Below are positions 27,298 to 32,452 of a stretch of DNA of 64,000 nucleotides, one piece after another. Origin of the DNA: an uncultured Clostridia bacterium. Its GTDB lineage: Bacteria > Bacillota > Clostridia > Christensenellales > Borkfalkiaceae. How positions within the stretch are numbered: position 1 is the first letter of the stretch; every line of letters starts with the position of its first letter. The DNA lies in assembly GCA_947631195.1 (NCBI GenBank), contig CANRKK010000001.1:62001-126000 (forward strand). The letters run 5' to 3'. The position numbers and the translations under genes were made by a program. A model generated the notes under the pieces. It made no database searches, was not told where the DNA came from, and saw only the letters and a list, made by a program, of their open reading frames with translations.

Positions 27298-27310
27298 GGT
27301 TTTAATAAAG

Positions 27311-27350
27311 CGGCGTGGGCAAGCGATGTTCACGCCGTAAGGTTTTATTT
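27311..27350 (+). terminator. Possible weak terminator or intergenic hairpin after oadA
   Basis: CGGCGTG pairs with CACGCCG over a 13-base loop and is followed by TAAGGTTTTATTT. The AAGG there also serves the next gene, so this may be a partial terminator. Confidence 0.45.
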
Positions 27351-28577
27351 ATGAAAAACGTAGCAGTAATAGGCGCGGGCGCCGCAGGGCTGATGGCCGC
27401 ATACGCTGCCGCAAAAAACGGAAACCGGGTTACAGTTTTTGAAAAAAATGAAAAATGCGGCAAAAAAATTTATATTACGGGCAAGGGAAGATGCAACGTC
27501 ACGCATGACTGCGACGAGCAGGAATTTTTGCAAAACGTTGTGTCTAATCCCAAATTTATGACGGGGGCCATTTATAATTTGTCGCCCGCGGCCACGGTAC
27601 GTCTTTTTGAGGAGAGTGGGCTTGCGCTTAAAACGGAGCGGGGAGCAAGGATTTTTCCCGCATCCGACAAGGCGAGCGACGTTACAAAGTGTTTGGAAAG
27701 CAACTGCAAAAAACTTGGTGTTTTGTTCAATTTTAATGAAAAAGTGACCAAAATCGAATGTGTACATAGTATTATGTCACACATAATTACTGAAAAGACC
27801 GAATATCCGTTTGATTGTGCGATTGTCTGTACGGGCGGATTGAGTTATCCTTCTACGGGCTCCACGGGCGACGGATACAAATTTGCGGTTGAAACGGGGC
27901 ACAAAATTGTTCCGCTGAGGCAGGGGCTTTGCGGGCTGAATTTAAAGGGAACCTTTTACAAAAATTTACAGGGCTTATCGCTTAAAAACGTTTCTCTCGG
28001 GGTCTTTTATAAGGGGCAAAACATTAAAAATTTTTTCGGTGAAGCTCTTTTTACGCACTACGGAATCTCCGGGCCCATTATTTTATCAGCTTCAAGCCTT
28101 ATAAACCGGCTTGATTTAGCGCAGGTTAAGCTCAGTTTGGATTTTAAGCCCGCCCTTTCGGCTGAACAGTTGGACAGTCGTCTGCTGAGGGATTTTGAGC
28201 AAAATAAAAATAAAACTATTGCAAATTGCTTAAAAAATTTGTTACCCGTTGCGCTTATTCCCGAAATTCTGGCAAGGTGCAACCTAAGCGGCAACAGACA
28301 AATAAATTCGATAACGAAGAGCGAGCGTTCCGATTTGTTGACAAAAATCAAAAATTTTGATATGCTCGTATCGTCTTTACGCGGGTTTGAAGAGGCCATA
28401 ATAACTTGCGGCGGCGTTGACGTCAAAGAAATCAATCCCAAAACAATGGAGAGCAAAATAATAAAGGGACTCTATTTTTGCGGGGAAGTGCTGGATGTTG
28501 ACGCTTTTACCGGCGGCTTTAATCTTCAAATCGCTTTTTCGACGGGATATACAGCAGGAAATTCAATAAAGGACTGA
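27351..28577 (+). CDS. HI0933/YhiN-family NAD(P)/FAD-dependent oxidoreductase
   Basis: Flavoprotein of unknown physiological substrate, in the family that includes BaiN-like enzymes. The FAD dinucleotide-binding motif IGAGAAGLMAAYAAAKNG is at the N-terminus, followed by GKKIYITGKGRCNVTH, a family signature, CTGGLSYPSTGSTGDGY and the C-terminal FCGEVLDVDAFTGGFNLQIAFSTGY. I start at ATG 27351, which gives 408 residues and a direct entry into the Rossmann motif; the track adds 12 implausible residues. This gene often precedes cmk in Clostridia, as here. A degenerate copy of the dispersed repeat falls in a variable part (VHSIMSHII). Confidence 0.9.
   Translation: MKNVAVIGAGAAGLMAAYAAAKNGNRVTVFEKNEKCGKKIYITGKGRCNVTHDCDEQEFLQNVVSNPKFMTGAIYNLSPAATVRLFEESGLALKTERGARIFPASDKASDVTKCLESNCKKLGVLFNFNEKVTKIECVHSIMSHIITEKTEYPFDCAIVCTGGLSYPSTGSTGDGYKFAVETGHKIVPLRQGLCGLNLKGTFYKNLQGLSLKNVSLGVFYKGQNIKNFFGEALFTHYGISGPIILSASSLINRLDLAQVKLSLDFKPALSAEQLDSRLLRDFEQNKNKTIANCLKNLLPVALIPEILARCNLSGNRQINSITKSERSDLLTKIKNFDMLVSSLRGFEEAIITCGGVDVKEINPKTMESKIIKGLYFCGEVLDVDAFTGGFNLQIAFSTGYTAGNSIKD
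27762..27788 (-). repeat. Dispersed repeat, degenerate copy 3 (inside the flavoprotein gene)
   Basis: The minus strand reads TTATGTGTGACATAATACTA, sharing TATG(T)GTGACATAAT with the exact copies and differing by one transition in the core right half. The left half GTACTATG appears downstream as ATACTATGTAC instead. Confidence 0.6.
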
Positions 28578-28583
28578 AATTTT

Positions 28584-29591
28584 ATGATTGCAATCCGTGG
28601 CGCCACAACAATCGAAAGCGATTGCGGCGGGCAAATTAAGGAAAGAGTAAAAGAGCTATTGTGCGAAATCAAGGCAAAAAACGGCCTCAGCGACGGCGAT
28701 TTTGTCTGCATTGTGTTTACAAGCACTGCGGACATACGTTCATATTACCCCGCAAAGGCGGCGAGGGAGGCAGGTTTTGCCTTTTGTCCGCTGTTTTCTG
28801 CATTGGAGCCCGATATCGAAAGCGCGCTGAAGCTCTGTATCCGCGTTCTGGTTTTTGCGGAATGTAAAGCTCCCGCCAAACACATATATTTGCACGCCGC
28901 CGCTGCGCTGAGAAAAGATATCAGCCAAAGGATAAATATAGCCCTCGACGGGCCCGCGGGCAGCGGAAAGAGTACGGTCGCAAAAATTTTAGGGAAAAAA
29001 CTCAACATTTTGTGCCTTGATACGGGCGCAATGTACCGCGCCTGCGCATTGAAGTGCATAAAGGAAAACGTGAGCGTTTTCGACGAGCCTGCCGTTGCCG
29101 CGCTAATGGACGGCATTGCTTTGGAAGTTAAGTATGTCGAAGGAGAGCAAAGGACCTATCTCGACGGGCAAGACGTTTCGGCCGAGATAAGAAAGCCCGA
29201 GGTTTCGATGTTGGCTTCATCCGTTTCCGCGCTCGGTTGCGTCCGCGAAAAGATGGTTGCGCTCCAACGGCAAATAGCCTCGAAAACTTCTTGCATACTC
29301 GACGGCAGAGATATAGGCACAAACGTTTTGCCTGACGCGCAATTTAAATTTTATCTTACGGCGCTTCCCGAAGTCCGTGCCGAAAGACGTGCAAAAGAAA
29401 ACCTACAAAAGGGCTACGATATCCCCTACGGGCAAATTTTGAAAGAGATCATAGAGAGGGACGAAAGGGACAAAAACCGCAAAATCGCGCCCCTGACGGT
29501 GGCGCCGGACGCCACTGTGATCGATTCTTCATATATGACCGTTGAGGAAGTTGTTGCCTTTATAGAAAATAAAATGCAGGAAAAAATCTGA
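28584..29591 (+). CDS. cmk: Fusion of AroH-type chorismate mutase and cytidylate kinase
   Basis: Residues about 1-112 match the AroH class of chorismate mutase (chorismate to prephenate): IRGATTIESD with the active-site Arg, SADIRSYYPAKAARE, SALEPDIESALKLCIRVLVF with the Glu and Arg positions, and HIYLHAAAALRKD. The cysteine near Glu78 of Bacillus AroH is a serine. Residues about 117-335 form CMP kinase: ALDGPAGSGKSTVAK P-loop, LDTGAMYRA, DGRDIGTNVLPDAQFKFYLTA and RDERDKNR. No stop or frameshift separates the two parts, which share the helical join LRKDISQRINIALDG. The gene is followed by plsC with overlapping stop and start. Confidence 0.9.
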   Translation: MIAIRGATTIESDCGGQIKERVKELLCEIKAKNGLSDGDFVCIVFTSTADIRSYYPAKAAREAGFAFCPLFSALEPDIESALKLCIRVLVFAECKAPAKHIYLHAAAALRKDISQRINIALDGPAGSGKSTVAKILGKKLNILCLDTGAMYRACALKCIKENVSVFDEPAVAALMDGIALEVKYVEGEQRTYLDGQDVSAEIRKPEVSMLASSVSALGCVREKMVALQRQIASKTSCILDGRDIGTNVLPDAQFKFYLTALPEVRAERRAKENLQKGYDIPYGQILKEIIERDERDKNRKIAPLTVAPDATVIDSSYMTVEEVVAFIENKMQEKI

Positions 29592-30313
29592 TGAGCGAAG
29601 AAACGAATAATGTAGAAACCTCCGCGACAAACGGCGGCGAACAGGTACCCCCCAAAAAAACCAAGAAAAAAAAGCGCACAAAACTTGAAAAATGGTTCAG
29701 ATTTATGCGCAGGCTTTACTATACCGTCGGGCGAATAATTCTGCCCATAAAAAAATTGGGGCATACGGAAAAATTTGACGATAGGGCATATCTCTACGTG
29801 GGGAACCATCTGCACGTGCTCGATGTCGTGCCCGTGGGGATTTCTCTCAGCAAACCTGTTCACTACATGTGCAAGCGCGAATTAACAAATAAAAAAATCG
29901 GCCGCTGGTTTACAAAAAAATGCGAGTGCATAGTGGTAAACCGCGACGGAACGGACGTGCGCGCCGTGATGCAGGCGATGAAATATCTTAAAAACGGCGA
30001 ATCGGTATGCTGTTTCCCCGAAGGGACGCGCAATAAGACAAATGAAATATTTTTGCCGTTTAAGAGCGGGGCTGCGGCCCTTGCGATAAAGACAAGAACG
30101 CCGATCGTCATGATGCTGCAGTGCAGAAAAATCAGACTTTTCAGAAAAAACTATTTCTATTTTGCGGAGCCCTTTGAGTTTTCTGAATATTACGGCAAAA
30201 AGCTCACCGAGGCCGAGATGCAGGAGGCCGACGAAAAGTTGCGTTCAAAAATGCTCGCTACCTATTATGAGCTGGATGCAATGCTTAAGAGCAAGAAGAA
30301 AAAATCCAAATGA
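29591..30313 (+). CDS. plsC: 1-acyl-sn-glycerol-3-phosphate acyltransferase (PlsC family)
   Basis: Acylates lysophosphatidic acid to phosphatidic acid at the membrane. The catalytic NHLHVLD (H-x4-D) is near residue 75, and the substrate-binding block CFPEGTRNK is near 140. A short Lys-rich N-terminus (PPKKTKKKKRTK) precedes the domain and could bind membranes or RNA. The 240-residue length is typical. It overlaps cmk by one base and ispH by four. Confidence 0.92.
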   Translation: MSEETNNVETSATNGGEQVPPKKTKKKKRTKLEKWFRFMRRLYYTVGRIILPIKKLGHTEKFDDRAYLYVGNHLHVLDVVPVGISLSKPVHYMCKRELTNKKIGRWFTKKCECIVVNRDGTDVRAVMQAMKYLKNGESVCCFPEGTRNKTNEIFLPFKSGAAALAIKTRTPIVMMLQCRKIRLFRKNYFYFAEPFEFSEYYGKKLTEAEMQEADEKLRSKMLATYYELDAMLKSKKKKSK

Positions 30314-32409
30314 AAGTAGTTTTGGCAAAGCACGGCGGCTTTTGCGCCGGTGTAAAATATGCCGTTGAAACGGCCATGTCGCTCGGGGGCGGCAACAATT
30401 ATGTGCTGGGCGAGATTATACATAATCCCGACGTGGTAAAGGAATTGGCCGACAGGGGCCTGAAGGAGGTAGACAGCCTCGACCTTGTGCCCGACGGGGC
30501 TACGGTTGTATTCCGGTCACACGGCGTTCCCCAAAACTATTATCTCGAATGTGAAAAAAGGAACATCAAAATCGTAGACTGCACCTGTAAATTTGTGCGG
30601 CGCACGCAGACAATCGTCAGCGAGCAACATGCGCTCGGCAGGCACATTGTGATTGTGGGTGAGGCGGGCCATCCCGAGGTTGACGGACTGCTCGGCTGGT
30701 GCGACGGAGAGGCAACGGTGTTGGGCGGCGGTGAAATCCCCGACGATTTGCGGCACAAAGACCTTGCGGTAGTCTGCCAAACTACGTTTGCAGAGGAAAA
30801 ATTTGAAAAAATAATAAAAAATATTAAAAAAGTTTGTGAAAAAACAGTTGCTGTTTTCAAGACTATTTGTTATACTACTATAGAACGGCAAAACGAAGTT
30901 GAAGAGCTTTCAACGCAATGCGAAGCTGTTTTGGTAATAGGCGGGCTGAACAGTAGCAATACGAACAAGCTGTATGAAATTGCTGCCGCCCATTGCAAAA
31001 ATGTTTTCAGGATTGCGTCGGCAACCGATTTTGACGTTTCAAAAATAAAAAATTTTAAAAGTTTAGGTATTGTTTCCGGGGCGTCGACTCCGGATGCGCA
31101 AACTCGGGAGGTTCTCTTAAAGATGGCAGAAAACACAGAAGTGAAGGCAACTAATGTTATGGATGAAGTAGTTGCTAAAATTGACAACGAGTCGAAGTTC
31201 AAAAAGGGACAAACCGTCACGGCTACCATATCTCAGGCAACCGAAGACGGATTGCAGATCCTTTTGCCTTTCTCCAAAAAGGAAGTGGCGTTGAGCAAAG
31301 ATGAGCTGGACTGCGAAGAATACAGGGCTGAAGACTACGTTGGCAAAATCGGTGAACCTATCGAGTTGCTGGTTGTCGACCTTAAACCCACACTCAAATT
31401 ATCGCAGAAAATGATAAAACTCTTGCAGCAAGAAGAAGCGTTGAGCGCCGAAATAGAATCGGGTAAAGAGTTTTCTGTTGTCTGCACCGGATATAACAAA
31501 GGCGGACTCACTGCCCAGCTCGGCACATATTCCGTGTTTGTCCCCGCAAAAGAAATCAGACCCGGTTTTGTAAAGGATTTGACCAAGTATGAAGGCAAAA
31601 CGTTGAGACTTCGCGCACTTGAAGTTAAAAAGACGGGCAGAAAAGAAATAATTGCCTCCCAGCGCGTTATTTTGCAAGAAGAGCGCGACGCAAGGGAAGC
31701 CGCCAAAGCGGAAAAGGAAGCCGAGTTCTTTGCCAATATCCATGTGGACGATATTGTAGATGGTAAGGTTGAAAGGGTTACCAACTTCGGCGCGTTTGTA
31801 TCGGTCAACGGTTTTGACTGCCTTGCGCACATTTCCGACATTTCATGGACGGGCGTAAGCGCGGTTACCGACGTATTGGAAATCGGCAAAACCTATCAGT
31901 TCAAAGTATTAAAAGTAGATGTAGATAACAAGAAAGTATCTATAGGTTATAAACAGCTTCAGCCCCAGCCTTGGGATCTTGTATCCGAAAAATATGCCGT
32001 CGGCGAAGTTATCCACGGCAAGGTTGTAAGGATTGTGCCGTTCGGCGCTTTTGTTGAAGTTGAAAAAGGTGTTGACGGACTTGTTCATGTGTCCCAGATA
32101 AGCCACGAAAGAATCGAAACGCCGTCAACGGTATTGAACGTCGGCGACGAGGTTGACGCAAAGATAATCGCAATCGATCCCGCCGCAAAGAAGATGAATC
32201 TTTCGATAAAGGCTCTGTTGCCCGAAGGCGAGAGGAAAAAATCACGCAAGCCCGCTGAAGGCGAGGACGGCGAAAAACCTGAAAAGCGTTCACGTTCGCC
32301 CAAGAAAACGGTTAATACCGACGAATATTCCGACTGGTCGGACGCAGGCAGCGGATCGGTGGGCATCTCTATGGCCGACATACTTGCGGACGCACAAAAA
32401 AATAAGTAA
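30310..32409 (+). CDS. ispH: IspH (HMBPP reductase) fused to ribosomal protein S1-type repeats
   Basis: The N-terminal half (about residues 1-285) is IspH, the last enzyme of the MEP isoprenoid pathway, with three 4Fe-4S cysteines (GGFCAGVKYAVE, IVDCTCKF, FKTICYTT) and GGLNSSNTNKL. The C-terminal half carries four S1 RNA-binding domains starting near residues 297, 382, 475 and 560 (for example VDGKVERVTNFGAFVSVNGFDCLAHIS), then a charged tail. This IspH-S1 fusion is known from Clostridia and supports the taxonomic placement. It is unlikely to be an assembly artefact, since the frame is uninterrupted. A terminator follows. Confidence 0.96.
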   Translation: MKVVLAKHGGFCAGVKYAVETAMSLGGGNNYVLGEIIHNPDVVKELADRGLKEVDSLDLVPDGATVVFRSHGVPQNYYLECEKRNIKIVDCTCKFVRRTQTIVSEQHALGRHIVIVGEAGHPEVDGLLGWCDGEATVLGGGEIPDDLRHKDLAVVCQTTFAEEKFEKIIKNIKKVCEKTVAVFKTICYTTIERQNEVEELSTQCEAVLVIGGLNSSNTNKLYEIAAAHCKNVFRIASATDFDVSKIKNFKSLGIVSGASTPDAQTREVLLKMAENTEVKATNVMDEVVAKIDNESKFKKGQTVTATISQATEDGLQILLPFSKKEVALSKDELDCEEYRAEDYVGKIGEPIELLVVDLKPTLKLSQKMIKLLQQEEALSAEIESGKEFSVVCTGYNKGGLTAQLGTYSVFVPAKEIRPGFVKDLTKYEGKTLRLRALEVKKTGRKEIIASQRVILQEERDAREAAKAEKEAEFFANIHVDDIVDGKVERVTNFGAFVSVNGFDCLAHISDISWTGVSAVTDVLEIGKTYQFKVLKVDVDNKKVSIGYKQLQPQPWDLVSEKYAVGEVIHGKVVRIVPFGAFVEVEKGVDGLVHVSQISHERIETPSTVLNVGDEVDAKIIAIDPAAKKMNLSIKALLPEGERKKSRKPAEGEDGEKPEKRSRSPKKTVNTDEYSDWSDAGSGSVGISMADILADAQKNK

Positions 32410-32421
32410 AAATTATTTAAT

Positions 32422-32452
32422 GAACCGCCGAATTTTTCGGCGGTTTCTTTTT
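32422..32452 (+). terminator. Terminator of the flavoprotein-cmk-plsC-ispH operon
   Basis: AACCGCCGAA/TTCGGCGGTT with a short T loop, followed by TTCTTTTT. Confidence 0.92.

Follow-up and report, generated by a model that had tools for sequence, protein, structure and literature searches.

Within the 64,000-nucleotide window, the whole stretch of DNA analysed here, an AroH-type chorismate mutase and a cytidylate kinase (Cmk) occupy a single open reading frame. The arrangement raises the question of whether this is a real two-enzyme gene, how genes from two pathways came to be joined, and whether the join matters to either enzyme.

One frame encoding two complete enzymes

The frame of 335 codons contains no internal stop in the sequence as read (Table 1). 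Pfam CM_1 matches residues 2-113 with 107 bits against a cut-off of 27, and Cytidylate_kin matches residues 119-332 with 247 bits against a cut-off of 26. Both halves also exceed NCBIfam equivalog cut-offs: TIGR01796 (AroH) scores 99 vs 82 bits, and TIGR00017 (cmk) scores 227 vs 136 bits with model positions 3-213 of 217 covered. The closest solved structures are AroH from C. thermocellum and B. subtilis for the first half and, among others, Cmk from S. pneumoniae for the second. The initial annotation had described two unrelated pathways in one protein, with the Arg, Glu, Arg and Tyr positions of AroH kept, continuous with the kinase, and a junction near 28920-28940. Each of these points was borne out: both domains lie above curated cut-offs, R7, E78, R90 and Y108 are present in the one frame, and the junction falls at about 28923-28937, where approximately five residues separate the AroH domain from the kinase domain.

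Table 1. Features of the aroH-cmk locus, in positions of the window
Feature	Position	Strand	Details and basis
aroH-cmk fusion gene	28584..29591	+	335 aa, ATG to TGA, stop included; ORF list, Pfam/NCBIfam two-domain matches, kept in congeners
AroH-type chorismate mutase domain, residues 2-113	28587..28922	+	Pfam CM_1, residue alignment
Junction SQRIN, residues 114-118	28923..28937	+	AroH last helix to first Cmk strand (model); family alignment
Cytidylate (CMP/dCMP) kinase domain, residues 119-332, P-loop DGPAGSGKST	28938..29579	+	Pfam, NCBIfam, structure matches
Shine-Dalgarno-like AAAGGA	28568..28573	+	10 nt upstream of fusion start codon; sequence as read
HI0933/BaiN-like flavoprotein gene, upstream	27315..28577	+	Pfam PF03486; real start perhaps ATG at 27351
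1-acylglycerol-3-phosphate acyltransferase-like (PlsC) gene, downstream	29591..30313	+	Pfam PF01553
IspH (LytB)-ribosomal S1 domain fusion gene, downstream	30310..32409	+	Pfam PF02401 + PF00575
Terminator-like hairpin before four-gene unit	27310..27338	+	Consensus scan, weak by itself
Terminator-like hairpin after four-gene unit	32422..32446	+	Consensus scan, weak by itself

The gene sits in a compact unit of four genes (BaiN-like gene, aroH-cmk, plsC, and ispH-S1) with overlapping starts, and the start of plsC overlaps the stop of the fusion (TGATG). No RNA element was found in the operon by Rfam. The ispH-S1 gene is a second two-domain gene fusion in the same operon, and plsC lies between the two.

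A sequencing or assembly error at the junction could in principle have joined two separate genes, as the window comes from a draft assembly and one congener (G019; G019:C52:6175-7189; L043, L082) has a frameshift inside the kinase part of its fusion. The conserved frame in independent genomes refutes this explanation, the probability of which is practically nil. Twenty-nine of 36 same-genus genomes carry the fusion frame at full length with 55-75% identity, four further genera of the family have the same uninterrupted frame, and these sequences share the spacing across the junction and the lack of a kinase start Met; an isolate genome from another lineage is also fused. The initial annotation had proposed searching relatives for the same architecture and had named separate genes with a stop here as the outcome that would refute it. 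No relative with separate, adjacent aroH and cmk and a stop at the junction was found within the family. The single-frame aroH-cmk is a genuine fusion of two complete enzymes.

G019 is the only one of the 36 congeners with such a frameshift, for which assembly error and decay are both possible. The remaining six congeners have no full-length match and no Cmk whatever in their assemblies (67-95% complete). Two nearly complete assemblies, G078 (family f1, 98% complete) and the congener G018 (95% complete), have no Cytidylate_kin match at all.

The fusion is not limited to one genome, a point absent from the initial annotation, and occurs family-wide in uncultured gut-type Clostridia. Among the CM_1-bearing genomes of the family in our order sample, 28 of 29 have frames of ~335-364 aa, the exception being the frameshifted G019, and those members that we fetched read as AroH-Cmk. 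All checked CM_1-bearing genera of the family have the fusion. Fused examples come mostly from metagenome assemblies, and the isolate Anaerotalea alkaliphila F-3ap (L157) also has one.

Catalytic residues and sole-copy evidence

The catalytic residues R7, R63, E78, R90, Y108, L115, and R116 (B. subtilis numbering) are kept in the window's AroH domain, and six of them (R7, R63, R90, Y108, L115, and R116) are invariant across 68 fused proteins. Glu78, which is important in B. subtilis AroH, is kept in 64 of the 68; the other four have Ala at this position. Position 75 is Ser instead of the B. subtilis Cys, both here and in 52 of the 68. The kinase domain has the P-loop GxxGxGK[ST], and G123, P124, G128, K129, D146, G148, R152, R203, R221, R242, and D243, among others, are invariant in the 68 fused proteins.

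Other chorismate mutases, which had been suggested as worth looking for, did not turn up in the host genome: searched family by family, it contains one CM_1 and no true CM_2 (AroQ). A single sub-threshold CM_2 signal crosses a stop and falls within an apparent GntR-type regulator, and we rejected it as a second chorismate mutase. The genome does encode chorismate synthase and prephenate dehydratase. It contains a single match to the fusion's kinase and no second CMP kinase, and the kinase domain is therefore predicted to be the host's only CMP kinase, acting on CMP and dCMP.

The distribution of AroQ across the family is complementary to that of AroH. CM_2 is above cut-off in none of the 29 CM_1-bearing family genomes and in all five that lack CM_1 (G078, G322, G374, G383, and G392), mostly in PheA-sized frames, and chorismate synthase is kept in all 34. 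We also rejected the idea that the AroH half was lost together with the shikimate pathway, as chorismate synthase is present in 43 of 43 genomes tested and AroQ replaces the absent AroH. In four of the five CM_1-less genomes, this BaiN-cmk-plsC-ispH locus encodes Cmk alone.

Because the host lacks a second mutase, and because AroQ occurs only in AroH-less genomes of the family and never in fused ones, the AroH half is very probably a working housekeeping chorismate mutase. The trimeric state of AroH in solved structures and the substitution at position 75 might instead point to a mere trimerisation scaffold for the kinase, with its own catalysis lost. The retained catalytic arginines, Glu78 and Tyr108 make this highly improbable, as does the lack of any other mutase in a genome with the enzymes on either side of this step, while AroH-less relatives have AroQ. 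From the residues and the gene content, we infer that both catalytic activities are retained: the N-terminal AroH domain would convert chorismate to prephenate, a reaction on the way to phenylalanine and tyrosine, and the C-terminal domain would phosphorylate CMP and dCMP.

Recurrent fusion of neighbouring genes

Unfused loci of the wider class show how close the two genes usually are. The initial annotation had noted that aroH and cmk can be neighbours, and indeed cmk lies directly downstream of aroH in 47 of 60 unfused loci, 12 of these overlapping; the stop-to-start distance of such pairs ranges from -17 to +168 nt. The 13 unlinked loci all come from one family (f19). The suggested origin by stop loss stands as far as a fusion of operon neighbours is concerned, but loss of the stop alone may not describe the event in this lineage; the stop codon and the kinase start Met are both gone from 47 of 47 family sequences. 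Both codons would have been lost between adjacent, often overlapping genes to give one frame. The fusion is almost linker-free because unfused AroH mostly ends 0-10 residues past R116 and the first strand of Cmk lies right at its N-terminus. One genus contains both states: the unfused G082 reads ...GATTTG GTG TAA GTT ATG CGT TAT..., whereas the fused G053 reads ...GATTTG GTG CGT TAT..., and these junctions are consistent with a nine-base loss. The nearest sister of G053 in the tree, G141, is also unfused.

In a tree of 91 concatenated AroH and Cmk pairs, fused and unfused, the fused forms make up ten clades (gain-only 10, parsimony 10, loss-only 25). One ancestral fusion was rejected, with a p-AU of 6.9e-5 for a single fused clade. 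Judged by this tree, AroH-Cmk has at least about ten independent origins in Clostridia, a recurrence that we attribute to aroH and cmk being operon neighbours. Outside the window's class, an AroH-Cmk fusion was read directly in G1044 (L233; G1044:C1:19500-22500, - strand), where a BaiN-like gene again precedes the fusion and the junction (LRPDLIYSVAIDGPAG) is very short. Two other in-frame combinations of AroH in the phylum were seen by reading only: AroH with a HisC-like aminotransferase (L232; G1011:C14:37500-41500, + frame from 486, 610 codons) and an apparent type II dehydroquinase, the product of a neighbouring shikimate gene, with AroH (L234; G1053:C62:26000-29500, + frame from 497, 295 codons).

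Some younger fusions keep the kinase ATG at the junction, among them L116 (LRKDKYMSNN) and L154 from an uncultured Clostridia metagenome-assembled genome (LRKDLFMNIAIDGP), and an internal start could in such cases give a free CMP kinase as a second product. For the window's family this is very unlikely, and we rejected an internal kinase start there: none of the 47 sequences has an in-frame ATG between R116 and the kinase DGP, and 31 of them have no ATG, GTG, or TTG at all in this interval. With no conserved start codon at the junction, the kinase is most likely made solely within the fusion.

Oligomeric state, coupling, and related fusions

Both domains are modelled with confidence in the monomer (mean pLDDT 91), and they match Cmk and AroH structures (1COM/1DBF/1XHO) separately, domain by domain. 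Helix 104-114 is followed by strand 118-122, the hinge at 111-120 is short and less certain, and the relative orientation of the domains is uncertain (pTM 0.68, junction pLDDT about 75). Solved structures show AroH as a trimer, a pseudo-alpha/beta-barrel with active sites between subunits, and in B. subtilis its C-terminal tail carries active-site residues. Judging from the AroH fold, the most likely assembly of the fused protein is a trimer in which each AroH C-terminus carries a tethered kinase, and these three kinase domains would work independently.

Tethering to the active-site tail could also be adaptive, with the state of one domain gating the other. Ten separate origins would fit such coupling, as would the 11-residue spacing from R116 to DGP, which 46 of 47 family sequences share even though they diverge by ~40% outside this spacer. 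However, adjacency alone predicts repeated fusion, the spacer ranges from 10 to 40 residues across fused lineages, its residue types vary freely, and the family members with AroQ in place of AroH keep their plain Cmk at the same locus. We consider adaptive coupling unlikely. The specific version, in which the kinase pulls or gates the AroH tail in the trimeric enzyme and the supply of pyrimidine nucleotides and the production of prephenate thereby affect one another, is a little less likely again. Since adjacency would account for the recurrence and the spacer length differs between lineages, the data do not call for functional coupling; the fusion may be tolerated or mildly useful, for example through fixed stoichiometry, rather than a means of regulatory coupling. 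We regard it as highly probable that aroH-cmk encodes a bifunctional housekeeping enzyme, the sole chorismate mutase and sole CMP kinase of its host, which arose by repeated stop and start loss in an operon and is predicted to be trimeric.

Each half closely resembles a known enzyme. The AroH half shares its full-length domain, catalytic residues, and fold with AroH-class chorismate mutases (CM_1; B. subtilis 1COM/1DBF, C. thermocellum 1XHO), but known members are stand-alone trimers, whereas here the C-terminal tail runs straight into the kinase. Similarly, the kinase half has the full-length domain, P-loop, and fold of bacterial Cmk (TIGR00017; S. pneumoniae 1Q3T, S. aureus 2H92, E. coli 1CKE), yet unlike stand-alone Cmk it has no start Met of its own and is tethered to AroH at its N-terminus. 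Curated fusions in which Cmk has an unrelated or aromatic-pathway partner are AroA-Cmk (PRK11860), PanC-Cmk (PRK13477), and Cmk-Der (PRK09518). The partner in AroA-Cmk, too, belongs to the aromatic pathway; here it is AroH. Against these three models the fusion scores 182, 216, and 159 bits, far below the respective cut-offs of 943, 524, and 953, and the match is essentially the kinase part. AroQ-class proteins also combine a chorismate mutase with another enzyme (PheA P-protein, TyrA T-protein, and exported CM-CDT enzymes; PMC10520331), but AroQ has an unrelated all-helical fold and its fusion partners act on prephenate, whereas the fusion described here joins the AroH fold to a nucleotide kinase. 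Linkage of aromatic-pathway genes with cmk-rpsA has been described (PMC1173090). A search of openly licensed literature gave no account of AroH-Cmk, which is weak evidence, and the curated Cmk fusions of NCBIfam do not include it.

AroH-Cmk probably does not represent a new mechanism, as both enzymes and the route by which they became joined are known; what stands out is the frequent recurrence of the fusion and its fixed spacer in one family. If the trimer prediction is true, the protein would be a natural trimeric CMP kinase. The repeated fusion of unrelated neighbouring housekeeping genes is a reminder that a 'Rosetta stone' fusion need not mean a functional partnership, and annotation that names such a protein after a single domain would overlook the chorismate mutase or the CMP kinase of an organism that has no other.
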